From assembly GCF_032118995.1 (NCBI RefSeq), contig NC_092661.1:15695006-15759005 (forward strand): a stretch of 64,000 nucleotides of DNA, given 5' to 3'. Below are positions 2,481 to 61,905 of this stretch, piece by piece. The first letter of the stretch is position 1, and each line of letters starts with the position of its first letter. This DNA is from Asterias amurensis (taxonomy: Eukaryota; Echinodermata; Asteroidea; Forcipulatida; Asteriidae). Made by a program: the position numbers and the translations under genes. The notes under the pieces were generated by a model, which was not told the origin of the DNA, did not search any database, and saw only the letters and a program-made list of their open reading frames with translations.

Positions 2481-2705
2481 ATAACTTATCGTGTACGTAC
2501 ATGATAGTTCCAAACTTATCGTGTACATACACGATAAGTTCAACAACTTATCGTGTACTTACATGATTAGCCCAAACTTATCGTGTACACACACAATAAC
2601 TTATTGTGTACGTACATAATAAATCTAAACTTATTGTGTACGTACACGATAAGTTCAACAACTTATCGTGTACTTACATGATAAATCCAAACTGACTTTT
2701 CATGT
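2478..2705. repeat. Minisatellite of palindromic units ('acttatcgtgtac')
   Basis: About six units of roughly 36-40 bp, each carrying 'cttatcgtgtacgtacac' or a variant, several followed by the mirror half 'cacgataagt'. Each full unit can fold on itself, and GTAC is the centre of symmetry. Alternate units end 'caacaacttatcgtg' or 'ccaaacttatcgtg', so a two-unit period of about 78 bp is also visible. Confidence 0.8.
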
Positions 2706-2765
2706 ACGTAAATCCAAACTTATGCGCATTGCTCAGTCTATTAGTTGATGTTCTCGGGTCGGTAA

Positions 2766-5700
2766 ATAGCAGATGAGTTTACCTGTCCCCAACCAAAATT
2801 TGCTAAGCAGATGTCTTAACCTGTTTTATAGTTGAGCTTAACAAAAGGAACAATTGAAGATTGGTTATGCGGTTTTTCTCCTGGCTGGCTGGACCTCTCT
2901 ATTGTTAAGAGATTTGTATTTGACAAAGATCTTTTGTACCACTAGGATACCACTTGCTTAGCAGATGAGTTTATCTGTCCCCCTACCCAAACTTGCTTAG
3001 CTGATGACTTTATCTGTTTAATAGTTGAGCTGAACAAAAGAAGCGATTGAACAGCGCTGATCCGTGGTAGTGCTCTCGACAATAGAAGCTACCACACTCG
3101 CCACTGAGATTGGACATGTAGTTTCTTCTCCTGGCTGGCTGGATCTCTCTATTATTAAGACATGAGTTTTTGACAAAAATATTTTGTACCACTAGGGTAC
3201 TACTTACTTGCTTAGCAGATGAGTTTATCTGTCTCCTGAATAAAGGTTGCTTAAACGATGAGATTACCTGCCCCCTACCAAAACTTGCTTTGCAGATAAG
3301 TTTATTTGTCTCTCATCCAAATCTTGCTTGTAGCAGATTAGTTTACCTGTCCCACTACCGAAACCTGCTTAGCAGATGAGTTTACCTGCCCCCTATCGAA
3401 ACTTGCTTAGCAGATAAGTTCACTTGTCTCTCATCCAAAGCTTGCTTAGCAGATGAGTTTACCTATCCCACTACCGAAACCTGCTTAGCAGATGAGTTTA
3501 TCTGTCTCTCAACCAAAGCTTGCTTAGCAGATGAGTTTACCTATTCCCCTACCGAAACTTGCTTAGCAGATAAGTTTATTTGTCTCTCAACCAAAGCTAG
3601 CTTAGCAGATGAATTTACCTGTCCCACTACCGAAAAATGCTTAGCAGATGAGTTTATCTGTCTCTCAACCAAAGGTTACTTAGCAGTTTAATTTACCTGT
3701 TCGTCTCCCAAATTTTGCATAGCAGATTAGGTTATTTGTCTCTCATCCAAAGCTTGCTTAGTAGATGAGCTCATCTGTCACCCAACACCAAAGCTTGCTT
3801 AACGGATTCATGAGTTGACCTGTCTCCTTCCCAGATTTCTTTAGCAGATATTTGTATGTCTCTCAACCAAAGCTTGCTTATTGGATTAGTTTACCTGTCT
3901 CCCAAACTAAGCTTGATTAGCAGTTGAGTTTACCTGTCCCCCTACCTTTGCCCTTTCCAAGCTTGCTCAGCAGATAAGTTTATCTGTCTCTTAACTATAA
4001 AAGCGTATCTGTTTTTTTGTTGAGCTGAACAAAAGAAGCAATTTATCAGCGCTTTTCCTTGGTACTGCTCTTAACATCAGAAGCTACTACAGTTAGGGAT
4101 CGGGCATGTGGTTTTTCTATTTTTAACTATTTTTTGCAAAGATCTTTTGTATCACTATGGTACCACTTGCTTAGCGGATGAGTTTATCTATTTTATAAGT
4201 GAGCTGAATAAAAGAAGCAATTGAATAGCACCAATCCGTGGTCATGCTCTTAACAATAGGAGCTATCACAGTCGCTGCAAGATTGGGCATGTGGTCTCTC
4301 CTCCTGGCTGGCTGAATCTTTCTTTTGTTAAGAGAATTGTAGTTGGCAAAGATCTTCTGTACCACTAGGGTAGCACGTGCTTAGCAGATGAGTTTATCTG
4401 TCCCCCTACCCAAACTTGCTTAGCTGATGACTTTATCTGTTTAATAGTTGAGCTGAACAAAAGAAGCGATTGAATAGCGCTGATCTGTGGTAGTGCTCTT
4501 GACAATAGAAGCTACTACAGTCGCGGAGATTGGACATGTGATTTCTTCTCCTGGCTGGCTGGATCTCTCTATTGTTAAGAGATTAGTCTTTGACAAATAT
4601 ATTTTGTACCCCTCGGATACTACTTACTTGCTTAGAGAAGAGTTTACCTGCCCCCTACCAAAACTTGCTTTAGCGGATAAGTTTAACTGTCCCACTACCG
4701 AAACCTGCTTACCAGATGAGTTTATCTGTTTCCTGACCAAAGCTTAGCGGATGAGTTTATCTCTCTCTCAACCAATGCTTGCTTAGGAAATGAGTTTACC
4801 TGTCCCACTACCGAAACCTGCTTAGCATATGAGTATATCCGTCTACTGACCAAAGCTTGCTTAGAGGATGATGTTTCCTGTCCCCACTGAAACTTGCTTA
4901 GCAGATAAGTTTATTTGTCTCTCATCCAAAGCTTGCTTGTAGCATATGAGTTTACCTGTCCGACTACCGAAACCTGCTTATCAGATGAGTTTATCTGTCT
5001 CTCAACCAAAGCTTGCTTAGCAGATGAGTTTACCTGTTCCCCTACCAACTTGCTTAGCAAATGAGTTTACCTTCTCCTAGGAAATTTGTTTAATAGTTTA
5101 TCAGCTTCTCAACCAAAGTTTGCCTAGTAGATAAGTTTACATGTCTCCTAACCCAAGCTTGTTCAGTAAATGAGTTAACCTGTCCACCTACCCAAACTTG
5201 CTTAGCAGACAAAATTATCTGTCTCTTAACCAAAGGTTACTTAGCAGTTGAATTTACCTGTGCGTCATCCAAAACTTGCTTAGCAGATTAGTTTTTATTG
5301 TCTCTCATGCAAAGCTTGCTTGTAGCAGACGAGTTTACCTGTCCCACTACCAAAACCTGCTTAGCAGATAAGTTTATCTACTGTCTCTCATCCAAAGCTT
5401 GCTTGACTACCGAAACCTGCTTAGCAAATGTGATTATCTGTGTCTCAACCCAAGCTTGCTAAGCAGATTAATTTACCTGTCCCCCTACTAAAACTTGCTT
5501 CGCAGATGAGTTAACCTGTCTCTAAACCAAAGGTTACTTAGCAGTTGAGTTTACCTGTTCGTCTCCCAAAACTTGCTTAGCAGAAGAGTTTATCTGCCGC
5601 CCAACACCAAAGCTTGCTTAACGGATTCATGAGTTAACCTGTCTCCTTGTTTAGCAGATAATTGTATGTCTCTCAACCAAAGCTTGCTTATCAGATTAGT

Positions 5701-7659
5701 ATACCTGTCTCCGACTACCGAAACCAGCTTAGTAGATGAGTTTATCTGTCTCCTGACCAAAGCTTGCTTAGAGGATGAGTTTACCCTGCCCCCTACCGAA
5801 AATTGATTAGCAGATAAGTTTATTTGTCTCTCATCCAAAGCTTACTTGTAGCAGAAGAGTAGGGAAACAATTAAACTCATCTGCTAAGCACATACTACCA
5901 TAGTGGTACAAAAGATCTTTGCCAACTACAATTCTCTTAACAAAGGAGAGATTCAGCCAGCCAGGAGAAGAACACCACATGCCCAATCTCTGGTAGCTAC
6001 TATTGTTAAGAGCATGACAAGATAAGTGCTATTCAATTGCTTCTTTTGTTCAGCTGACTTATAAAACAGATCTGCTAAGGTAAACTCATCTGCTAAGCAA
6101 GTGGTACCATAGTGATACAAAAGATCTTTACAAAAAATAGTTAATGGCCTGACGTTTCGATCCTACTAGCAGAGTCTTTCTCGAAGGCTAAAGACAAAAG
6201 ATCTTTGTCAACTACAAATCTCTTAACAATAGAGAGATCAAGCCAGCCAGGAGAAAAACCACATGCCCAATCCCTAATTGTAGTAGCTTCTGATGTCAAG
6301 AGCAGTACCAAGGAAAAGCGCTATTCAATTGCTTCTTTTGTTAAGCTCAACTAAAAAACAGATACGCTTTTATAGTTAAGAGACAGATAAACTTATCTTC
6401 TCAGCAAGCTTGGGAAGGGCATGGGTAGGGGGACAGGTAAACTCAACTGCTAATCAAGCTTAGTTTGGGCGACAGATGAACTCATCTGCTAAGCAAACTT
6501 TGGATGAGAGACAAATAACCTAATCTGCTATGCAAAATTTGGGAGACGAACAGGTTAATTCAACTGCTAAGCAAGCTTTGATTGAGAGACAAATAAACTC
6601 ATCTGCTAAGCATGTTTCGGTAGTGGGACAGGTAAATTCATCTTATAAGCAAGCTTTGGTTGACAGACAAATAAACTTATCTGCTAAGCAAGTTTCGGTA
6701 GGGGAACAGGTAAACTCATCTGCTAAGCAAGCTTTGGTTGAGAGACAGACAAACTCATCTGCCAAGCAGGTTTCGGTAGGGGGCAGGTAAACTCATCCTC
6801 TAAGCAAGCTTTGGTCAGGAGACAGATAAACCCATCTGCTAAGCAGGTTTCGGTAGTGGGACAGGTAAACTCATCTGCTAAGCAGGTTTCGGTAGTGGGA
6901 CAGGTAAACTCATCAGCTAAGCAAGCTTTTGATGAGAGACAAATGAACTTATCTGCTAAGCAAGTTTCGATAGGGGGCAGGTAAACTCATCTGCTTAGCA
7001 GGTTTTGGTAGTGGGACAGGTAAACTCATCTGCTACAAGCAAGATTTGGATGAGAGACAAATAAACTTATCTGCTAAGCAAGTTTCGGTAGGGGGCAGGT
7101 AAACTCATCCTCGTAGCAACCTTTATTCAGGAGACAGATAAACTCATCTGCTAAGCAAGTAAGTAGTACCCTAGTGGTACAAAATATTTTTGTTAAAAAC
7201 TAATCTCTTAACAATAGAGAGATCCAGCCAGCCAGGAGAAGAAACCACTTGCCCAATCTCTGCAGTGACTGTGGTAGCTTCTACTGTCAAGAGCACTACC
7301 ACAGATCAGCGCTATTCAATTGCTTCTTTTGTTCAGCTCAACTATAAAACAGATAAAGTCATCAGCTAAGCAAGTTTGGGTAGGGGGATATATAAACTCA
7401 TCTGCTAAGCAAGTGGTACCCTAGTGGTACAAAAGATGTTTGTCAAATACAAATCTCTTAACAATAGAGAGAGGTCCAGCCAGCCAGGAGAAAAACCACA
7501 TGCCCAATCTCTAACTGTAATTATATAGCTTCTGATGTCAAGAACAGTACCAAGGAAAAGCGCTATTCAGTTGCTTCTTTTGTTAAGCTCAACTATAAAA
7601 CAGATTAACACATCTGCTTAGCAAACTTTGGTTGGGGACAGGTAAACTCATCTGCTATT
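2766..7659. mobile_element. Fold-back (FB/TU-like) element with long inverted repeats built of minisatellites
   Basis: The left edge 'aatagcagatgagtttacc' near 2766 is mirrored by 'ggtaaactcatctgctatt' ending near 7659. Inside is an array of about 40-bp units (core 'gcttagcagatgagtttacc', partners 'tgtctctcaaccaaag' or 'ccactaccgaaac'), in one sense until about 5860 and in the reverse sense afterwards. Cassettes of about 200 bp interrupt it. Their marker 'ctggctggctgg' lies at about 2883, 3133, 4308 and 4553, and its complement at about 5954, 6241, 7227 and 7478. A cassette without the marker is near 4000-4165. Order and spacing mirror each other: arms of about 1.65 kb (2766-4400) and 1.79 kb (5870-7659) around a 1.47-kb spacer. 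No ORF worth calling; no clear target-site duplication. Long inverted repeats made of short tandem repeats are the hallmark of Drosophila FB and sea-urchin TU elements. An ordinary satellite with one inversion is the alternative. Confidence 0.75.
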
Positions 7660-8054
7660 GTGTTTGCTAAAATGTGTGATGTGGAGGATGATCGTGGTTA
7701 ACGTCTGTTTAGTCAAAGGCGTAAAACATAACTTGAAGGGGCAGTCAATATTGCAATAATTGTAAGTGTGCTCATGCTCATAATGTGAATTAAACAAACT
7801 TAATTAAATTAAACCGGATTCCCCCATAACTGGGCTAGAGGTAATTATTTTGTAAAGTTTTGAATAGAGGGCGATTCACAAAATACTGTACTTGTTCGCG
7901 GGTCCTTGCTCTATGATCACTGACTTGGATGATGCTCAATGCACCAAAACCACACTCCATCTTCACCATACATCCAAACTGTGAATGGTAAGTTAAATGA
8001 TGCTTTATTTAAAAAAAAAGTTACGTATTACGTTTACACAAAATATCTTACGTT

Positions 8055-8858: not shown

Positions 8859-11800
8859 ATGACCATTTTCAGCATTTTGATTTTCCTTTTGCTTGAGACG
8901 TTACTTGAGGTTTCAGCGTCTTATAGCGTGAGTGGTCTTTACCGAGGGGTCTGGTACCAGCCGGTAGAGGACCACGCCCTACTAGGCCAGTCCATCATGA
9001 ATACTATACCACGCATCTCTGCCGTCGGATGTTCAGTTCGGTGCCTCAGCCACCATGGATGTTTCTCTTTCAACTACGATCACATCAATCAAGTATGCCA
9101 GATGAACAACTTCAATGGAGAGCATGCCTGTGACAAACTTAAGGGAATGCCAAATGTCTCTTACTTCGACGCAACTGCACCTCCGAAGATGTGCCAGGTA
9201 TGTACTAATGTTAACAATAGGTTGTCCCAGTCTTTTTCGAATTGTTGAAATGAAAATTACTTAAAACATGTGTTCATTTTTAATTGTAAACGAATGTACC
9301 TTCGCGTCTCGTGATTCAATTTAATTGTTGATTACTCAAAATAATTCTTTGCATAAAACCTGTAATGAGCAATGGCGAGCTGTTGATAGTATAAAACATT
9401 GTTAGCAACGGCTCCCTCTGAAGTTATTTTTTTGAGAAAGAAGTAATTTCTCATTAAAATATTTAAATTTAACTCGATAGCTCAGCTGAGGTCTCGAACT
9501 CAAGCATCTGAGATGAAAGCATACAGCTTGTGCGACCAGGGTAATTTTTTCTTCCATTATTCTCTCGCAACTTCGACGACCTAGAGTTCAAATTTTCACA
9601 GGTTTGTTATTTTATGCATATCTTGAGATACACCAAGTGAGAAGACTGGTCTTTGACATTACCAAAGTTGTACAGTGATTTTAATCGATAGTTTCTCATT
9701 TTAAGGAAATGTGGCTTTTCGTGAAAACAGCGACGATTTTGTGTACTCGCACTTCTTGAAAAATAATATATCAATATTTTACTCATCTGTTTGTGCGGTG
9801 TGGTACTGCAGTTAATTTTGACTGTAAATTGCAATTATTTCGTCTTGAGTTTGTATGTTTAGTTGTTGCCCTGGAAACACATCAACTGAGCGCAGTAATA
9901 GCTGTTTCATTAGGACCAACCGCAGCGAAATCAAAATATTAGCTTGCCTTTGGTTGCAACTGATGACTGCACACCTGTAGACTATATTTGTGAAAAGTTA
10001 CACTACTGTTAAAAAAAAAATCATAATAAAAATGCCAATACAAATTACGCGGACCGTCACCGGTTTCTAATTCATTCTGATGTTTTAATGTATATCGATT
10101 TTACTCGCTGGTTGTAATGATGTGTTTATTCGGTGCATTTTGACTGTAAATAACATGCGTCTTTTGTGTACGTTAAGTTGGTGCCCTTGAAACACAGCCA
10201 CTGTGCGGTTGTAATAATAGCTGATTCATTTGCTGCCACCTAGCGCTCAAAAGTATCACATTTGCTGCTTCTGGTATCATGGCTATGATCGGATGTATAC
10301 TTCCGAAAACATATATAATACGCAAAAAAAAACCGCAAAAAACAAAACTTTCTGTCTTAAATTGAATATACTCACATTTTTCGAAATGAAATTGAATGCT
10401 AGTCTAGTAAATCTCGAAATTTACTGGTTTTCTTTTTAACTTCGTGAACTAACACAGTCCACTATTTTGTAGAACTACACTTTCGACTCGAAAACATTTT
10501 CCTTTAACCATGTTTTATAATAACAAACGCTTGTTATAAAACCCATTGCGCCCAATCCGATAAGGGAACGCTTTTCCTTGAACCAATCAAGGTACATTTG
10601 AATTTAGATGCACTTTTGCCAAAATCCTCGGGAAAATAAATGAACTTTAAAGCCCGGTTCATACTTCCTGCGAATGCGAATGCGAAGCGAATCTTGACGT
10701 CACAAATTCGCAACGAACAATTCGCAGCAGTTGCCCTCTGCTCTACTCTCTTGCGAATAATCGCTGCGAAAGAAGGGTGCTTCGCATTCGCATTCGCAGG
10801 AAGTATGAACCGGGCTTCAGAGGCTAGTAGTAAACTGCATTATGTAAAATCACACTGTGTTTAGGATCCCAAGTTTAATGGATCCGTTTGTGTGTGCATT
10901 GTGATTTCTCTACAGCATAACACCGTTTCTGGATACTGTTATCGTTCTTCGAAGGCCTGCAGTGTTCCTGGTAAGTCGCTGGGATGAAAACAAGATGGTT
11001 TATTACACTGGACAAATTCACACATCCCTTTTTGCCTTTTTATACAATAACTTTGCTTTGTTAACGTGATATGCCTTTGTATATAAGGCCAAGTAAAATA
11101 ACAATTTAGTTTATCGTCCCCGCCCGCCTCCTTTTAGGCCGTTTTCTTTTTCTTTTTATTCCTTTTTTACTACTTACCACATTGAGAAAAAAAAGAAAAA
11201 AATAAGAAGGAAAATAATAAAGAGGGGGGGAGGACGGGAAAAAAACCTAAAGTTCCTTGTTTTGTTTGGCTAAAGGATTAGTCGTTTTGCTACAGGTATT
11301 ATTTTTAGAGATCTCGTTGTACCATTTTCTCTTTATTTCAATTTGCTAGTTATACCTTCCATGGCCATTGAGCTTTTAGACCTATATACCAGTCGTTTTT
11401 CATTGTTTCGTTCGTATATTTTTCTCTCTCAATGTTTTAAAATGTGTACAGCTAAACGTTTTGCATTGTAGTTTTTAAGCAATATTAAAGCAACTTACTA
11501 CTTTGTCCATCTTTGTCTGGACTCAACTGCCGGTCTTAAATTTTGATCGGTGTCATGTGTAACGTTATGTTGTCCACGTGGTTTTCTGTTCTAAAGCGAA
11601 AAGTATAAAAGCATTTCGTATCTGCTTCACTGATTTCTTACCATGCTGGCTCCATTTTCATCTGCTCTGTGTCTAAGTTTGTATTATCCAGTTTATTGTT
11701 TAATGAGTTACCTATTAGCATCGAAATGTATCATTACCCTATGTCGATGTGAAATAAATAAATAGACGTTTTTTTTTTAATAATGCTTTAAAATCTAGAG

Positions 11801-13049
11801 AAACTTGGCCTCGAGGATGAATCCATTCCCGATGAGAGCCTCTCCGCATCAAGTAACTGGGAGCCAAACGGACCACACAAAGGTAGGAGCACAGCGGCAG
11901 GTGGTCGACTCAATAGGGTTCCGCCATCAGTTGACATCAACGCAAATGAAACAATCATAGGAGCATGGCACCCTGCAGTGGCCGATCGAAACCAGTGGAT
12001 ACAGGTGGATTTGGGGTACCAGACCTACGTAACTGCGGTACTCACACAGGGGCGTTATGATGGCACGGACGGCCATTGGGTGACAAGGTACAAGGTGCAG
12101 TTTGAACCACCCGCACTGGCATGTCTTGTTTTCGTCAAAGACAAACTGGGCCGAACTCAGGTATTTTTTATATCTGTCTACATGTTAAAGGCAGTGGACA
12201 CTATGCTGGTAATCACTCAAAGTAATTATTATCATAAAACCTTACTTGATTACGAGTAATGGGGAGAGGTGGTAGTATAACAAATTCTGAGAAACGGCTC
12301 CCTCTGAAGTAATGTAGCTTTCGAGAAAGAAGTAATTTTCCACGAATTTGATTTCGAGACCTCAGATTTAGAATTCGAGGTCTCGAAATCAAGCATCTAA
12401 AAGCACATAACTTTGTGTGACAAGTATTTTTTTTTCTTCATATAATCTCGCAACTTCGATGACCGATTGAGCTCAAATTTTATGCATGTTGAGATACACC
12501 AACTTGGAAGACTAGTCTTTGACAATAACCAATAATGTCCACTGTCTTCAAAGGAACATTACAAAATTAGTGAGAAAAAAACTCGCCCAAGACCACAGAT
12601 TTACATAAAACATACACCGTCTTATGATGATGAGACCAAAAAAACATCTCTTGAAATATGTATGTCTGGAATGTTATTATTTGGTGAGAAATAAGTAAAA
12701 CTTAGATGGCCGATTAATCTTAAACTTCTACAGGTTTTTCAGTTTATGTATAAAATGGTTGAAAACATAGTGGATCGCTACTGTTTTATTAGTAAAAAAC
12801 CAATTCTGAAATGTTCTTTTAAAAATATGTCTATTTTAAATAATAATAAGAAATAATATACTTTTTTCAGTACTAGAAATAATTATGACATTGATCTTCA
12901 CTTACCAGATATTCATCGGAAACACCGACAAAAACACCATCGTAAGGAGAAGCTTCTTCAAGCCCGTATTGGCGGTAAAGATTCGCATCCTGCCTACTGA
13001 TTGGCAACACTTCATTGGTCTGCGTTTTGAGCTGCTTGGCTGTAAATAA
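8859..13049 (+). CDS. Secreted PAN/Apple + F5/8 type C (discoidin) domain protein, 298 aa, four exons
   Basis: Exons 8859-9197, 10916-10970, 11799-12160 and 12909-13049 join in phases 0, 1 and 0 with GT-AG borders. Residues 1-21 (MTIFSILIFLLLETLLEVSA) form a signal peptide. Residues about 24-110 are a PAN/Apple domain (GCSVRCLSHHGCFSFNY...QVCQMNN). Exon 2 supplies 18 residues with the opening cysteine of the F5/8C domain (ACSVPEKLGLE, Cys128). The domain runs through IPDESLSASSNW, NQWIQVDLG and VTAVLTQGRY to IRILPTDW and ELLGCK, closing with Cys297. Discoidin folds bind glycans or lipids and PAN folds bind proteins or glycans, so an extracellular recognition or adhesion role is inferred. There are no membrane segments. 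A convergent paralogue with the same exon plan lies at 17419-22923. Introns carry MITEs. The ATG has no upstream rival in frame with a signal peptide. Confidence 0.88.
9318..9668 (+). repeat. F1-family repeat in intron 1
   Basis: Recognisable 'ttactcaaaataatt', 'gcataaaacc', 'gcaacggctccctctgaag', a central dyad, 'cgcaacttcgacgacc' and 'caccaagtgagaagactgg' followed by 'gacattacc'. Both extreme ends have eroded. Same sense as the host gene. Confidence 0.75.
9770..10240 (+). repeat. Diverged tandem duplication of about 320 bp in intron 1
   Basis: 'ttttgactgtaaat...gttgttgccctggaaacacatcaactg...aatagctgtttcatt' at about 9816-9914 recurs as 'ttttgactgtaaat...gttggtgcccttgaaacacagccactg...aatagctgattcatt' at about 10137-10231. 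Non-coding. The remainder of the intron to 10640 shows no exon or further repeat I can name. Confidence 0.5.
10651..10816. mobile_element. Palindromic MITE ('agcccggttcatacttcctg' ends) in intron 1
   Basis: A 166-bp sequence whose left half (agcccggttcatacttcctg, gcgaatgcgaatgcgaagcg) is nearly the reverse complement of its right half (cgcattcgcattcgcagg, aagtatgaaccgggct). Flanks read 'tttaa' on the left and 'tcaga' on the right; no clear target duplication. The frame open across it is a property of the repeat. A decayed relative is at 557-800. Confidence 0.75.
11340..11766 (+). repeat. Possible LINE 3' tail in intron 2
   Basis: T-rich non-coding sequence ending 'gatgtgaaataaataaataga', a tail style common in non-LTR retroelements. 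No coding domain is visible, so this is only a suggestion. Just upstream (11110-11240) are C/T-rich and A/G-rich runs that are roughly complementary. Confidence 0.25.
12187..12553 (+). repeat. F1-family repeat in intron 3, nearly full length
   Basis: Begins 'ttaaaggcagtggacacta' and ends 'aataatgtccactgtcttc', so the two ends are imperfect inverted repeats. A central dyad 'cgagacctcagatttag / gaattcgaggtctcg' marks the fold. It sits in the last intron of the PAN-discoidin gene. Confidence 0.85.
12551..12825. repeat. F4-family repeat next to the F1 copy
   Basis: Shares 'aaaggaacattacaaaatt', 'accacagatttacat', 'tagatggccgatt' and 'aaacttctacag' with the copy at 55594-55802 in an intron of the fucolectin-PAN gene. 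The ends 'aaaggaac' and 'gttctttt' suggest a terminal-inverted-repeat MITE. Confidence 0.55.
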
Positions 13050-16370: not shown

Positions 16371-16745
16371 CTTTAAAGGCACTGGACACTATTGGTAGTT
16401 GCTCAAAATAATTTTCAGCATAAAAACTTAATTGGTAACTAGCAATGCAGAGCTGCTTGTAGTATATTATTAAACTTTGTGGGAAACGGCTCCCTCTGAA
16501 GTAACATAGTTTTTGAGGAAGAGGTGTCTTCTCAATCAAAATATTACACGATTTTAGGCCTGAAGTATTTTTAGGCATCAGAAACACAAGTCTGTGATAA
16601 AAGTGCTTTTTTTCTTTACGATTTTTTTGCAACTTCGATGACCGAGTCAATATTTTCACAGATGTGTTATTTTATTCACTTGTTGCGAACCGCGAACCAT
16701 CAAGTGAGATATACTGGTCTTTGAAAGCTACTAAAGGTGTTCAAT
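16371..16745 (+). repeat. F1-family repeat
   Basis: Runs from 'aaaggcactggacactattgg' to the region of 'gatatactggtctttgaaag'. Its right third, from 16636 on, is included in the tandem triplication that also copied the last exon of the neighbouring gene. Confidence 0.75.
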
Positions 16746-16833
16746 TATACCTTTGATTTTAACTATGACAAAAAAAACGATTTTACGTTGAACTAGTGGT
16801 TTGATTTCACGACCAAACTAGTGGTTTGCTACA

Positions 16834-16929
16834 TTATTACACCCAAGCAGCTCAAAACGCAGAGCGATGAAGTCTGCCCACTCAATGGGCAAGATGCGAA
16901 TCTTGACCGCCAAGACGGGCTTGAAGAAG
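16834..16929 (-). pseudogene. Extra copy 1 of the F5/8C terminal exon segment
   Basis: The minus strand reads FFKPVLAVKIRILPIEWADF then IALRFELLGC, as in the genuine exon 4 at 17419-17562. One base is missing at the end, so the frame passes through the usual Lys-stop. The copy has no splice acceptor: upstream is MITE sequence. It is therefore 3'-flank or UTR, not an alternative exon. Confidence 0.7.
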
Positions 16930-17125
16930 ACCGTCGATGACCGAGTCAATATTTTCACAGATGTGTTATTTTATTCACTTGTTGTGAACCACCAAGTGAG
17001 ATAAATGGTCTTTGAAAGCTACTAAAGGTGTTCAATTATACCTTTGATTTTAACTATGACAAAAAAAAACGATTTTACGTTGAACTAGTGGTTTGATTTC
17101 ACGACCAAACTAGTGGTTTGCTACA

Positions 17126-17222
17126 TTATTTACACCCAAGCAGCTCAAAACGCAGAGCGATGAAGTCTACCCACTCAATGGGCAAGATGCGAATCTTGAC
17201 CGCCAAGACGGGCTTGAAGAAG
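17126..17222 (-). pseudogene. Extra copy 2 of the F5/8C terminal exon segment
   Basis: Reads FFKPVLAVKIRILPIEWVDF and on to ELLGCK with the stop at 17126, identical in protein to the genuine exon over this span. It lacks the first 16 codons and any acceptor AG at the right place. The identity suggests a very recent duplication or ongoing homogenisation. Confidence 0.75.
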
Positions 17223-17418
17223 ACCGTCGATGACCGAGTCAATATTTTCACAGATGTGTTATTTTATTCACTTGTTGTGAACCACCAAGTGAGATAAATG
17301 GTCTTTGAAAGCTACTAAAGGTGTTCAATTATACCTTTGATTTTAACTATGACAAAAAAAAACGATTTTACGTTGAACTAGTGGTTTGATTTCACGACCA
17401 AACTAGTGGTTTGCTACA

Positions 17419-20400
17419 TTATTTACACCCAAGCAGCTCAAAACGCAGAGCGATGAAGTCTACCCACTCAATGGGCAAGATGCGAATCTTGACCGCCAAG
17501 ACGGGCTTGAAGAAGCTCCTCTCCACGGTGTTATCTGTATCAGCAGTGTTGCCGATGAATATCTAGAAAACGAAGGTTAAAAATGGCATAATGTTTAATG
17601 GCATAATGTTAAGTGAGAAACGATAGCTTTTTATTGCTCACAATATTGCGTGCAATCAACTGGATTAAAAGCCTTGACACTATTGTTAAATACTCAACAA
17701 ATAGTCGTTTGCACAAAAACTTACTTGGTAACGAGTAATGGAGAGCTATTGATAGTATAAAACATTGTGAGAAACGGCTCCCTCCGTAGTAACGTAGTTT
17801 TTGACAAAGAGGTTATTGCTCACTCAAATAATAAAAGACTTCAGCTGAAGCATTTTATTGTGCATCTGAAAGCACAGAAAGTAATGCAACAAGAGTTTTT
17901 TTTTTTTTCTTTCATTAATCTCTTGCAACTTTGATGACCAATTGAGCCAAAAGTTTCACAGGTTTGTTATTCTATGCAAACGTTGGGATACACCAAGTGA
18001 AATACTGGGGCCAATTTCATAGAGCTGCTTGAGCAAAAAATTTGCTTAAGCACGAAAATAGTTCGCTTATTTTATACAGGTTACTGGCAAAAATTTCATG
18101 CCATATACATTACTTGTGACTGGTATTTAGCTGTTGTTTGCTTAGCATAACAATTCAGTTGAGTCTTGGCCGGTAGTCTGATTTTACTAAGCAAGGAATT
18201 TTTTGCTTAAGCAAAATTTTGTGCTTAAGCAGCTCTATGAAATTGGGCCCTGGTCTTTCACAGTTACCAAAACGTGTCCAGTGCCTTTAATTTGAAATAT
18301 TTAATATAAAACTACCTGAGTTTGACCAAGTTGGTCTTTGACGTCAACAAGACATGCCTGTGAGGGTGGTTCGAACTGCACCTTGTACTTTGTCACACAT
18401 TGGGAACGACCATAACGCCCCTGTGTGAGTACCCCAGTGACGTAGGTCGGGTTGTCTAAGTCCACCTGTATCCACTGGTTGGTACCCGCTGCACTAGGGC
18501 ACCATGCTCCTATGATGCCACCAGTAAGGGGAATCTTGTTGAGACGGCCATCAGCCGGTGTACTCTTTTCTGTGTTATTCCAGTTACTTGATGCGGAGAG
18601 GCTCTCATCGGGGATTGACCCATCCTCAAGGCCAAGTTTCTCTGGATTTGGGAGAACAATAACGGGAAACTTTAGACTATCTGCCAATCACCAAGAGAGG
18701 GCACTCTTCACCAGGTAATGTCAACAACTTAGGAATGGGAGAAGCATGAGTGACGGTCACTGACAGCAAATACCTTGTGTTTTACGTGTTTTTGATTTTG
18801 TATTTTAGATTTAGCCAAACTGTACTTTGTTTTTTATAACACATTGCCAGCATAAATCAAACTGTTCTGGAACAGGACGTACTGGACACGAGTTCCCCAA
18901 GGATAACAAGCGGTGTGCATGAGTTTTGGGGAGTGTTTCTTCTAGGGTAATTAGCCAAAATTCCAAAATGCTGACCTACCAAAACTTGAGTAGAAATCTG
19001 AAGTTAAGGTGTATGACATTGTATCTGATTTAATTTTCAAGAGGCTGAGAGACTTTTAAATATTTTTTGAGTATTTTTTTAACTTTTAGCATTTACCATC
19101 GTTTGCTATAGGAGTTGTGCACCCTTACCTGGTAGGTCTGCTGCCCTCTAGTTGCAGAGCTTTCAAACAGTCTCCAATTGAAACTGACGTTTAGGGCTTT
19201 GCTGACAGAATCGACAGACTCGATTACTTACCCCAAAAAATACTGTCCAAAAAAGAACGATTTGGTCGTAATAGATGTTTCATTTGCATCGGGGATATTA
19301 AAATAATATTCATTTTTTGTTTTTACCCATTATACACCGATAGCACTGAATACTCATTACTTCCCCCCGAGTTCTGTGAAAAAAATCACAGGCATATTAC
19401 TCGGTTGGGATTTGAACCCACGACCTTTGCATTTCTAGAGCAGTGTCATGCCAACTATATGTTTTAGTTGAATAAGCAATCACTTTATTCTAATAATATA
19501 GGTTTTCTCGGTCAAATTCGGCAAATGAGCAGTCAATTTAATTTCCATGCGTTCGAATTAAAGCTGTTCTGCTTTTCCACTTGTTACTGCATTTCAAATT
19601 CAGAATTCGGCCATTCAATTTCGTTTTGGGTCGAGTCAAATTCCTTAAGCACTCTGTTCATAGCGTAGCGTCATTCTTTTTCGTGACACACACGCCTCAA
19701 GAAGCGTCTGCGAATTTGAATGCTGCTTTGATGATTTGTTAAATTGAATGATTATTGGTTAATTCGAATGACGCAACATTACATTTGACTAATCCCAAAA
19801 CGAAATCAAATGACCCTTTTGAGTAGCATACGATTTTGCGCGAAATAGACTAGCTTGGTGATTAAATTGGCTGCTCTTTTTCCGAAGTTGACAGAGAAAA
19901 CCTATAGTTACCTGAGATACTGCAGGCCTTCAACGAATTAGACTTTGGGCAAAAAACAGCCTTGTTCTGTAAATTAAGGTATACAAAGAAAATATATATT
20001 TATCAACGGATCAAGTATAGATTAGAGTTAATACATATCAAAAGACCAGTATTGAGTATGACGTCACCATTCAAAAACCTGCCCTATCATGGCAGCGTCA
20101 ATCTGTCTTGAAAGATGGGGGGGGGGGGGGGGGAGGTGGGGACATCGTTAGTCATAACATTTACGACGTAGGGTCCGGGGCTCGAAATTCGAGGCCGTAG
20201 ATCCTCTCTGGTTCAATCTAGGGAGTCTGAGAGGGTGATGTGCCTCCTCTCATACGTTGCAAACTATGATGCACAAATTATTTGCGGTTGGTTAGTGTAT
20301 CAAAAGAAAACCTCAATTATAGCTTGGTATCTATATTATTACTGCATATTTAATGCTCAGGCGCCGTTTCATCCCAATCATCACCAGCATCGTCAAGGGT

Positions 20401-22923
20401 GGGTCCAGACAATAAATAAGAGGGGGGGAATCTATTAAAGATGGAGCGTGCAAGTGTGGAACGCGAAGCCTTTTACGGCGTAGGGTCTGGGCCCGCCTAA
20501 GGGCCCGCGAACATTTTGCATTTTAGATGCTCTGAAGATAGCACCACATGTGGTGCTATCTTAGGCCAATATAAGAGGCATACAGAGGAGAACAGAACAT
20601 AAAGCATGTAAACTGTGAGTAGCAGTAGAACCTTTTGGGTTAACAGCATCTTCAGGTGCGGATCTATGACACAAGTTTTAGGGGGCAAATCCGTCAAAAC
20701 GTGAGCATGCGAATGTGAAGCCTGTACGGCACGGGTCCGGGCCCGCTTAAGGGACTGGGAATATTTTGCATTCTAGATGCTCTGTGGTGCAGTCGTAGGC
20801 CATACTTTAGGGGGCCTAATTGGCAAACGAAACAGAACAATAAGCCTTCAAAATTTTAGCTGTAGAATTTTGGCCCTTTTGGATTTTGGAAATACTTGAA
20901 TTCTTAAAGTCACCTGGAAGTGGTATTTTTTCAAAATAAAGCCTTTGTCACTAATATATGTGTTTTGATGAGTGGAATGTGAATAAACAGTTAACTAAGG
21001 TTTTAAAAAATCAGTTCTTATGTTATTTACAAATTTAAGAGTAGACCCCGACCCGAGAGGGCGCTGTTCGTGACTTCAATCGAGGCAGACTTTGCCTGTA
21101 ATGCGTAGAGTAAACACAATTGCAAAGTACATGTACGGACCAAGTCGTGAGTTTGTACGTTTCAAAAAACATTTTTTGGGTTTTTTTTTCCGGCAATGCC
21201 GACCAGGTGTATTGCTGCTGAATGCAGAAAAACACTTTTTCAGCCCTCAGCCCCCCAAACAACTTTATCTATTTTTTAAACATATAAATCGTGACAAACA
21301 ATTACTAAAAAAATTGTTTTATTGTTCGTAAGCATATACTCTTATGTTTGAAAGAAAAACAATTCTATTTCCAGGTGACTTTAATAAAACAAAATTAAAA
21401 TAAAAGGGTTTGTGTAGTTGATTGCTTGCAATGTTTGTACGCAAGGTTTACGGAAAATGCAAACAATCTCAGAAACGTCTCAATGAATATGGTGTAAAAG
21501 GCAACAGAGTTAATAACAGCCTTGAACGCGGAGTTACATGTGTAAGAAATCATGGCCATTATCGCTCGAACTAGCCATGGAGGCCGCAGAACGGCAATGT
21601 CAGAAAGGGACAGCGCGTCACCGTAAAGTAAACATACAGTATAGTAAATATAAAAGAGTTTAGAACTAAAATAGTATGGAGATGACACGCACGTGCCCTT
21701 TTATAAGTTAATAAGACACATGAGTTAACAAAAACTGAACTGGGGGAACAGAGTGTGTGTCCCCCCCCCCCCCCCCCCCCCCCCCCAACGACGGGAATGG
21801 AAACAGGGTTAGGTCTTCACAGTGCAAACTTGAACCTCGTGATAAAGGTCGTCAAAAACATGCAGGGACTTTTGATATTGTGTCCTCCACCCTTCAAAAA
21901 GTGGGGGACGTGTTCCCCGCCCCCATTACTATAGATTGATGCCCATTACGGGACGGAGGGTTTGGTCTTACACAGTGCAATACTTGAGTTTCATAATAAA
22001 GGGGTTCAAACACATGGGAGACATTTGATATTGTGTCCCACACCCTTCAAACAAAAAAAAGGGGGGACGGGGGACACGTCCCTCCCACTCTTTTAAGAAT
22101 GGGGGTGCAAATCTGTCAAAAAATGGAGCATTCGGTTGTGAAGCCTTTACGGCGTGGGGTCCGGGCCCGCATAAGGGCCCGGGAATATTTTGCATTCTAG
22201 ATGCTCTGTGCTGCAATCTTTTTGAGGGGGATCATTTGATATTGTGTCCCCTCACCCTTCAAAAAGTGGTGTCATCAGTTGCCCCCAGGAGTGATGCCGA
22301 TGGCGGGCAAAGGGTTTGGTTTTAAACAGGACAATACTCGAGCTTCATGATAAAGGTTGTCAAAAACATGGGGGGACATTTGATATTGTGTCCCCCACCC
22401 TTCAAAAGTTGGGGGGGAGGACGTGTCCCCCTGCCCCTCTTTACGCCTATGGGCGTCTGTGACGTGTGCCATACGAACGCTGCGTCCTTCATTGATGTTC
22501 GCGTTTCGACGCGCATACGGTTTGCCCTACAAGATTTCGACTTACATCGCAACAAAGGGGTTATTCAAGATTAGTACGTACCTTGCACGTCATTGGACTC
22601 GCAGTTTCACCGTAATAAGAAACAAGTTGCATTCCTTGAAGGTTGTGACAGACGTGCTCCGCACTGGCGTTGTTCATCTGACAGACTTGATTGATATGAT
22701 CGTAGTTGAAAGAAAAACATCCACGATGGCTGAGGCACCGAACTGAACATCTGACGGCAGAGATGCCTGAGATATTCATGAAGGACTGGCCTAGTAGGGC
22801 GTGGTCCTCTACCGGCTGGTACCAGACCCCTCGGTAAAGACCACTCACACTATAAGATGCTAAAACCCCCAAAAACATCTCTAGCAAGAGGACAAGTAAA
22901 CTGCTTATGATAGGCATATTCAC
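17419..22923 (-). CDS. Secreted PAN/Apple + F5/8 type C domain protein, 288 aa, four exons (paralogue of 8859-13049)
   Basis: Minus-strand exons 22923-22582, 19966-19912, 18641-18316 and 17562-17419 join in phases 0, 1 and 0, the same plan as the upstream paralogue, including a 55-nt exon 2. Residues 1-23 (MNMPIISSLLVLLLEMFLGV then LAS) are a signal peptide. PAN domain about 25-112 (RCSVRCLSHRGCFSFNY...QVCQMNN). Exon 2 gives NKAVFCPKSNSLKACSIS and the F5/8C opening Cys129. The F5/8C domain continues with EKLGLEDGSIPDESLSASS, NQWIQVDL and GVLTQGRY, then IFIGNTADTDNT, IRILPIEW and ELLGCK (Cys287). The role is as for its paralogue: extracellular recognition, inferred. The two genes are convergent, about 4.4 kb apart. 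A MITE sits against the exon 2 donor, and part of exon 4 is triplicated downstream. The ATG at 22923 is the only in-frame start that gives a signal peptide. Confidence 0.88.
17668..18290 (+). repeat. F1-family repeat in intron 3, split by an F6 insertion
   Basis: The left part 17668-18006 has 'ccttgacactattg', 'cttacttggtaacgagtaatgg' in pieces and 'gatacaccaagtgaaatactgg'. The right part 18251-18290 resumes 'tggtctttcacagttacc' and 'gtccagtgcctttaa'. The break falls exactly at 'actgg', as expected for a later insertion. Confidence 0.85.
18007..18250. mobile_element. F6 palindromic MITE nested in an F1 copy
   Basis: Starts 'ggccaatttcatagagctgcttgagc' (in pieces) and ends 'gcttaagcagctctatgaaattgggccc': about 244 bp with inverted ends of roughly 25 bp. 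Internal 'ttgtgactggtat' and 'tgcttagcataac' are family marks. Other copies: 32316-32512, 36055-36235, 43831-44024. Confidence 0.85.
19350..19455 (-). repeat. tRNA-derived SINE-like fragment in intron 2
   Basis: 'cccccgagttctgtgaaaaa', 'tcacaggcatattactcgg' and 'gggatttgaacccacgacc' match the piece at 42738-42810. On the minus strand 'gggttcaaatccc' is a pol III B box. No matching A box at good distance, so only a fragment is claimed. From 18720 to 19350 the intron shows nothing else. Confidence 0.45.
19501..19902. mobile_element. 402-bp MITE with about 40-bp terminal inverted repeats, abutting exon 2 of the PAN-discoidin gene
   Basis: The left end 'ggttttctcggtcaaattcg', then 'gcaaatgagcagtcaattta', mirrors the right end 'ttaaattggctgctcttttt' and 'ccgaagttgacagagaaaacc'. 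Both sides are flanked by TATA (19497-19500 and 19903-19906), fitting a TA or TATA target duplication. On the gene's strand the intron starts GTAAC and the flanking TATA follows directly, so the element lies within ten bases of the 5' splice site. Confidence 0.85.
20118..20136 (+). repeat. Homopolymer G run
   Basis: About 18 consecutive G. Intronic. Likely length-variable and a place where the assembly may be wrong. A C run of about 25 lies at 21762-21786. Confidence 0.9.
20443..20830 (+). repeat. Two copies of a dispersed repeat with 'gtccgggcccgc' core
   Basis: Copies near 20443-20560 and 20686-20830 share 'gtgaagcc', 'acggc', 'ggtccgggcccgc', 'aagggcc', 'atattttgcattctagatgctctg'. A third copy is at 22108-22230. 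The first is followed by a 'agatagcaccacatgtggtgctatctt' palindrome. Intronic and non-coding. Confidence 0.7.
20908..21385 (+). mobile_element. Non-autonomous DNA transposon with a THAP-like N-terminal fragment
   Basis: The ends 'ttaaagtcacctggaa' and 'ttccaggtgactttaa' are exact 16-bp inverted repeats enclosing about 478 bp. Inside, an ATG at 21196 opens MPTRCIAAECRKTLFQPSAP and stops at 21279. The spacing M-P-x-x-C-x4-C is that of the start of a THAP zinc finger, found in P-element-type transposases. The rest of such a protein is absent. The THAP reading rests on very few residues. Confidence 0.6.
21795..22450 (+). repeat. Tandem-like array of a 150-230 bp GC-skewed repeat
   Basis: Three units share 'ggtttggt', 'acttgag', 'cat(g)ataaag', 'tgatattgtgtcc', 'acccttcaaa' and G/C runs: about 21810-21920, 21960-22080 and 22220-22440. 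A 'gtccgggcccgc' repeat interrupts them at 22108-22230. They fill intron 1 close to the first exon of the minus-strand gene. The short open frames over them are artefacts. Confidence 0.65.
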
Positions 22924-23045
22924 ACTCCGTCTGACTACAAAGTCACTGTATCAAATTATCAAGTAAATATTTCTCTACCAGTCATGTGAACAGTTTAAGC
23001 CTTTTCTTGAATTATTTTGGTAGCCATACTTTTGATCTTTTTGGG

Positions 23046-61154: not shown

Positions 61155-61815
61155 CATAATAGCATAACATCATAACAGCGTAGCAGTATAACAGCATAAC
61201 ATCATAAAAGCATAACAGCATAACACCTTATTGGCACAGTGCATAACAGCTTAATAGCAACAGCTCACATCGGGTGCATAACAGCTTTACATCGCAATAG
61301 CAGCAGCAGGTGTATAGCATCATAACATCTTAGCAGTATAACAGCATAACATCATAAAAGCATAACAGCATAACACCTTATTGGCACAGTGCATAACAGC
61401 TTAATAGCAACAGCTCACATCGGGTGCATAACAGCTTTACATCGCAATAGCAGCAGCAGGTGTATAGCATCATAACATCTTAGCAGTATAACAGCATAAC
61501 ATCATAAAAGCATAACAGCATAACACCTTATTGGCACAGTGCATAACAGCTTAATAGCAACAGCTCACATCGGGTGCATAACAGCTTTATATCGCAATAG
61601 CAGCAGCATGTATATAGCATCATAACATCTTAGCAGTATAACAGCATAACATCATAAAAGCATAACAGCATAACACCTTATTGGCACAGTGCATAACAGC
61701 TTAATAGCAACAGCTCACATCGGGTGCATAACAGCTTTACATCGCAATAGCAGCAGCAGGTGTATAGCATCATAACATCTTAGCAGTATAACAGCATAAC
61801 AATCATAAAAGCACA
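61155..61815 (+). repeat. 150-bp tandem repeat, about 4.3 copies
   Basis: 'cataacatcttagcagtata' recurs at 61321, 61471, 61621 and 61771, exactly 150 bp apart, with a first unit from about 61171. Each unit is itself built from 'gcataacagc' words about 10 bp long plus 'caccttattggcacagtg' and 'cacatcgggtgc'. Units differ by only a few bases. It ends about 90 bp before the stop codon of the downstream gene on the minus strand. Confidence 0.95.
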
Positions 61816-61905
61816 ACCTGTGTGTGGACCTGTTTTCGACCGTCTTTTTTTTTTGGGGGGGGGGGATAAAGGTTAAAAGGGGCTTTGCTGTACGGCAAAA
61901 ATGAT

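Follow-up and report, generated by a model that had tools for sequence, protein, structure and literature searches.

A palindromic satellite block with the shape of a fold-back element, inserted into an older repeat of Asterias amurensis

Structure of the palindrome and its surroundings

The analysis of a 64,000-bp stretch of the Asterias amurensis genome (contig NC_092661.1, here C14, positions 15,695,006 to 15,759,005; hereafter the window) reveals a true fold-back structure, a large inverted repeat at window positions 2767-7657 that we call block W. An earlier note, made from the letters of the window alone, had proposed a fold-back transposon at this place, and the inverted repeat itself is confirmed: the left arm (2767-4409, plus strand; 1.64 kb) and the right arm (5859-7657, minus strand; 1.80 kb) are 88.1% identical over 1624 aligned bases, with 126 transitions, 68 transversions and 12 gaps. 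The match scores 1408 bits, against 442 bits for the strongest other inverted match in the window, and the inverted repeat is therefore far beyond chance. The whole palindromic insertion measures 4891 bp, its boundary being placed to within about 1-2 bp by the symmetric edges and by the flank alignments on contig C11 described below. The spacer (4410-5858, plus strand) is 1449 bp long; the note had given 1.47 kb for it and about 1.7 kb for the arms. As the note had also observed, the outer edges mirror each other, and they do so to the base, with TAGCAGATGAGTTTACCTGTCCCCAACCAAA at the left and at the right and TA at both outer ends.

The palindrome is built from a 39-bp unit and from a cassette with a core of about 185 bp and a period of about 250 bp, which supports the two subrepeat levels proposed earlier and corrects their sizes from 40 and 200 bp. 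On the plus strand, the left arm holds cassette c1 (2821-2946, without 56 bp that its mirror copy has), c2 (3011-3196), an array of the 39-bp unit (3206-3995), a truncated c3 (4006-4091) and c4 (4185-4369). The right arm carries, on the minus strand, the reversed cassettes c4' (5901-6071) and c3' (6194-6364), a second 39-bp array (6422-7160), and c2' (7170-7355) and c1' (7420-7605). The spacer consists of a fifth cassette, c5 (4434-4610, plus strand), and further forward-strand 39-bp units, that is, of the same satellite family with no separate middle domain, which brings the cassettes to five forward (the third truncated) and four reversed. A cassette marker had been counted four times in each direction at mirrored spacing. 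That count holds only for the shorter ctggctggct / agccagccag (2881, 3131, 4304 and 4551; 5955, 6241, 7226 and 7478), whereas the full ctggctggctgg occurs three times forward (2881, 3131, 4551) and twice reversed (7224, 7476), and only the outer two cassettes have mirrored spacing.

Because the cassette order is mirrored and the in-register arm pairs reach 91% (I1 over 704 ungapped bases, I5 over 267), the structure is an inverted duplication; the other 23 inverted pairs shown comprise 21 at 71-84% and two, I3 and I9, at 93-94%. In a tree of 84 cassettes, from which the relations of c1 to c1' and of c2 to c2' were judged, c1 and c1' are sisters (support 0.93), as are c3 and c3' (0.997). Along the arms, identity by 100-column windows falls to 72-74% in the four windows at columns 800-1200 and stays at 89-97% in the remaining ones, except for two short windows (13 columns at 100% and 18 columns at 78%). 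The arrays of the low-identity zone align better when shifted by three units (94% over 319 bases, pair I3), and since they match better out of register we read this zone, from its sequence, as a product of unequal exchange.

Several further features were considered at the locus. In the right arm, a stretch of about 50 bp at 6144-6195 (ggcctgacgtttcgatcct...) lies opposite a 103-base gap in the left arm; it may resemble the ends of other mobile elements. A gene-coding array was rejected: the 39-bp unit leaves some reading frames open, but the 26 frames of the palindrome, of which the longest reaches 103 aa, consist of the repeat as judged by eye, with no library search made. A short inverted repeat at 2376-2479, considered for a link with the palindrome ends, proved to be a dispersed repeat of about 104 bp distinct from the satellite, with 40 places, its own among them, scored of 1021 candidates. 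No match to the window reached the gathering score among 4227 Rfam families. A connection with a sex-linked region was likewise set aside, as the consulted part of the published work places the A. amurensis candidate on chromosome 10, to which the contig numbers used here cannot be matched.

The left neighbour of the palindrome is a minus-strand frame at 1458-1787 with a signal-peptide-like start, as read from its translation, and its right neighbours are plus-strand exons with PAN and F5/8 type C domains at 8859-9245 and 11792-12256. These exons belong to one of two paralogous PAN and F5/8 type C exon sets on opposite strands (8859-12256, plus; 18304-22950, minus). Elsewhere in the window, a 293-bp unit is present in three copies at 97% identity (16635-17515) and a 150-bp unit in 4.4 copies at 97% (61164-61817), the latter overlapped by 8-bp and 24-bp units.

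Distribution of the satellite and organization of its blocks

The genome searched comprised 491.5 Mb in 23 contigs, of which C14 accounts for 20.34 Mb. A 34-mer of the cassette, with up to three mismatches allowed, gave 55 matches, all on C14; 54 lie within 15.13-16.64 Mb and one is outlying at 0.516 Mb (C14:516296-516329), about 14.6 Mb from the cluster. Queries with the left- and right-edge cassettes gave at least 102 and at least 146 matches, all within C14 15.13-16.64 Mb, these counts being lower bounds with the best 40 candidates scored per query. The repeat thus behaves as a satellite: it is clustered on one chromosome and its tandem units form blocks with cassette types in common. In the stretches of C14 examined, blocks A (C14:15129121-15180275 and 15207297-15219460, a region that includes 5000 N), D (15763339-15767281) and E (16633651-16637846) run on one strand, and blocks B1 (15436830-15447134), B2 (15457715-15465080) and W run forward and then reverse. 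The shared types include the c1-type cassettes and the neighbouring pair c4-c5, which is present in W, B1 and B2. Titles and abstract openings of the literature looked through contained no description of this satellite.

The three inverted blocks each have their own centre joint. In B1 it is a tight hairpin, ACCTGTCCCC and GGGGACAGGT separated by 11 bp (TACAGATTTTT); in B2 the array is fused to a reversed cassette, and in W the array is fused to a reversed unit beside c4'. The three joints differ, and B1, B2 and W therefore did not acquire their inverted shape by the copying of a single unit from place to place. Blocks B1 and D, in turn, mirror each other: the array end and its flank are 84% identical over 560 columns (the flank alone 78% over 243), and on the opposite side lies an F-box/WD40 gene, with 84% identity at the protein level and 89% in DNA over 1.8 kb. 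By sequence comparison the pair is an inverted segmental duplication, since flank and neighbouring gene are common to both and their order is mirrored.

Sixteen block edges were compared, each taken as a BLAST limit; some of the true ends are tens of bases further outward. On both its left and its right side, W begins at the same base and with the same variants, the left edge of E begins about 8 bp further in, and the other 13 edges differ, with B1 right and D left sharing a common flank. Both W ends carry the variants AACCAAA and GCTAAGCAGATGT, which are absent before other c1-type cassettes among the matches listed. No second locus with both W edges was found in the edge-cassette genome searches, which give lower bounds, and none of the 14 other edges, which do not include those of the lone cassette at C14:516296, matches the W pair, whereas a transposon family would predict copies with both edges in different flanks. 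An empty-site search for all eight blocks, covering 258 kb of sequence, returned no match crossing a junction by more than 24 bases.

The arrays of C14 also contain other repeats. Inserts of about 0.5 kb, bounded by TTAA and carrying AGAGGGGCTACAGGAT as terminal inverted repeats, sit within cassettes at C14:15132663-15133183 and 15136615-15137174. In region A the end of this insert also precedes the start of an array at nine more places, and insert and array were therefore amplified together. A palindromic-looking repeat of about 430 bp, likewise flanked by TTAA, is inserted in B1 (C14:15446380-15446810), and a 2.6-kb unit containing part of an intronless F-box/WD40 gene is present in three copies with 99.9% identity at C14:15447337-15455125.

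Among the matches listed, the 39-bp unit is confined to C4, C6 and C14. On C4 it lies 58-350 kb from the contig start and on C6 at 26.18-26.27 of 26.31 Mb, and by coordinate comparison a NOSIP-like exon (E = 1.1e-12 against Pfam zf-NOSIP) lies within 0.5 kb of it in 14 of 14 copies on these two contigs. Nine copies of the exon are on C4 (59397-349953) and five on C6 (26181071-26263256), near the contig ends; four more matches on C22 stand without the 39-bp array among the matches listed. Array and exon at the start of C4 are oriented as the mirror image of those at the end of C6, a pattern that exchange between chromosome ends would give, the contig ends being putative telomeres. With its arrays next to amplified NOSIP-like genes close to the ends of two contigs, the shared 39-bp unit offers a second place to study minisatellite movement between chromosomes.

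Insertion site and target duplication

The palindrome is flanked by the two parts of an older dispersed repeat. Its left part (2483-2766, plus strand) consists of an array of a 30-bp unit (2483-2693) and a further 73 bp, and its right part (7658-7864, plus strand) is recognized by dispersed matches and by the joined-flank alignments. When the palindrome was removed and the flanks were joined, the query with the full left flank gave a single alignment on C11 spanning the junction. The search was repeated without the 30-bp array, since that array has many matches, and the joined flanks then matched C11:16507511-16507658 (79%, 123 bits) and C11:16510945-16511013 (86%, 77 bits), in both cases across the junction and in both cases with one base more than the query. 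Seven places were scored, namely the two on C11, the two flanks of the window itself and three with the right flank only. Two paralogous empty sites are thus aligned through the junction, and because the joined flanks match C11 across it, the palindrome is a sharply bounded insertion in the older repeat.

No target-site duplication of 7-10 bp is present at the edges, where the left flank ends in GTCGGTAAA and the right flank begins with TTGTGTTTG. Within about 10 bp of the edges no direct repeat is longer than 4 bp, and the one of that length (TAAA) has a right copy that begins 10 bp beyond the right edge. As for a duplication of TA, the target of Tc1/mariner-like elements, adding these letters at the junction had little effect: one score rose from 151 to 153 bits and the other from 104 to 105. 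When 12 junction variants were simulated with 60 targets apiece, one A or one T changed the raw score by +2, with a one-base excess, in 40/58 and 39/58 usable targets, C or G gave +2 in 4/60 and 7/57, and TA gave +8 or +13 with a two-base excess. The empty site therefore fits one A or T better than TA, and because scores and simulation both favour the single base, at most about one base was probably duplicated at insertion. A one-base loss common to both C11 copies could mask a TA duplication.

Origin of the palindrome

Overall, the palindrome is probably an inverted-duplicated fragment of the local two-level satellite that entered its site through end joining or template switching. In shape it is like a fold-back element; its membership in the fold-back transposons is not supported. 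A broken satellite end may have folded back on itself, or a copying fork may have switched strands, either of which would yield an inverted dimer with identical outer ends. Such a dimer could then have entered a break close by through joining, or have been copied in cis through template switching, with no transposase taking part, and its units would later have been reshuffled by slippage, unequal exchange or conversion.

Several observations weigh against this account. Ends at the same base, with a host repeat that fits together around them, are also the outcome expected of a transposon with terminal inverted repeats. The two C11 sites are 3.4 kb apart and may not be independent, and the choice of A or T over TA comes from scores rather than letters. 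Three other edges (A left, B1 right and D left) start within a few bases of the same 39-bp-unit phase, which might be a sign of a preferred end. The mirror is also unclean: c2 groups with c5 (0.905) and not with c2', while c4, c4' and a B1 cassette group together (0.86), the left c4 standing weakly beside the B1 one (0.74). By score, too, the left array is closer to B1 (798 bits) than to the right arm (763), as is the left c4 (320 versus 271 bits). Conversion or a more complex history of the W segments is likely on these sequence relations.

An extension of the proposed origin, which we hold to be rather unlikely, is that the satellite moves as ready-made palindromes, inverted dimers with defined ends that insert without a transposase footprint. 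If true, this would provide a route for satellite spread, and for fold-back-like structures, without transposase.

A competing explanation, in our view an unlikely one, is that the host repeat first received a plain one-strand array, which was inverted there afterwards. Such inversion seems to be frequent in this satellite, because two other blocks of the same chromosome region, B1 and B2, are inverted with joints of their own, and the 12% divergence of the arms is near that of the B1-D duplication (11% over the best 1.8 kb). An inversion of this kind would, however, be expected either to bring some of the left flank over to the right or to break off within the array, whereas W ends at the same base on both sides and its flanks adjoin as they do at the C11 sites.

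About as unlikely is the fold-back transposon of the earlier note, here in the form of a non-autonomous element with subrepeat-built terminal inverted repeats of which a single surviving or dead copy remains. The anatomy stands, with long terminal inverted repeats of tandem subrepeats, and so do the sharp ends, which are symmetric to the base with TA at both, as well as the insertion in a pre-existing repeat with no host sequence loss detected. The restriction of the cassette pattern to one contig and the differing centre joints leave the proposed transposon family unsupported, and the missing second two-ended copy, the lack of a 7-10-bp target duplication and the disfavoured TA duplication point the same way. 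The spacer, moreover, is the same satellite, and by eye none of the 26 frames is transposase-like, with no family-library or genome-wide transposase search made. The missing duplication alone is not final, because copies without a matching one are described in the consulted parts of the papers on Tm1 (8 of 53 complete copies; PMC3169594) and Galileo (12 chimeric copies; PMC3573991). The chimeric route to such a loss misfits here, because the flanks of W fit together.

An artefact of sequencing or assembly, in which a missed adapter lets a read fold back, belongs to a known class of palindromic artefacts but is very hard to reconcile with arms that differ at 12% of aligned positions and by 12 gaps, and with three blocks that have different joints.

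These results indicate that a satellite can give rise to the textbook shape of a fold-back transposon, and the two may be told apart by the joints, the edges, the empty site, the target duplication and the dispersal.

Comparison with known systems

The FB elements of Drosophila and the TU elements of sea urchin have inverted arms made of short subrepeats, a likeness to W in architecture. Their dispersal and their typically longer target duplication are unmatched in W. Higher-order satellite arrays with local inversions combine composite units, chromosome restriction, variable blocks and differing joints, as found here; W departs from them as a palindromic block inserted, with sharp bounds, into an unrelated dispersed repeat.

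In anatomy, W is closest to Tetris, Tm1 and Galileo, whose arms are likewise long, inverted and internally repetitive, as far as the consulted parts of the respective papers describe them. Tm1 of root-knot nematodes (PMC3169594) and Galileo of Drosophila (PMC3573991) have composite terminal inverted repeats with a variable number of tandem units, like W, and an empty paralogous site served as evidence for Tm1 as well (PMC3169594). These papers, in the parts consulted, also report many copies and transposase-coding relatives, together with target duplications of mostly 9 bp in Tm1 and 7 bp in Galileo, which differ from the absence of any 7-10-bp duplication at W. Tetris of Drosophila virilis is described, in the portion of the source used here, as duplicating 8-10 bp of its target, as having a distinct outer flanking domain and as scattered along all chromosomes, with three copies that are structurally complete; nothing of this was found for W (PMC4079207). 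It resembles W in its inverted arms of up to 1735 bp with tandem repeats of about 220 bp, in its lack of coding capacity and in the occurrence of its repeats also as satellite arrays, and it is presented there as a fold-back transposon that seeded a satellite (PMC4079207). If satellite palindromes do insert as units, they would be fold-back "elements" of satellite origin, opposite in direction to the path of Tetris, which led from a transposon to a satellite.

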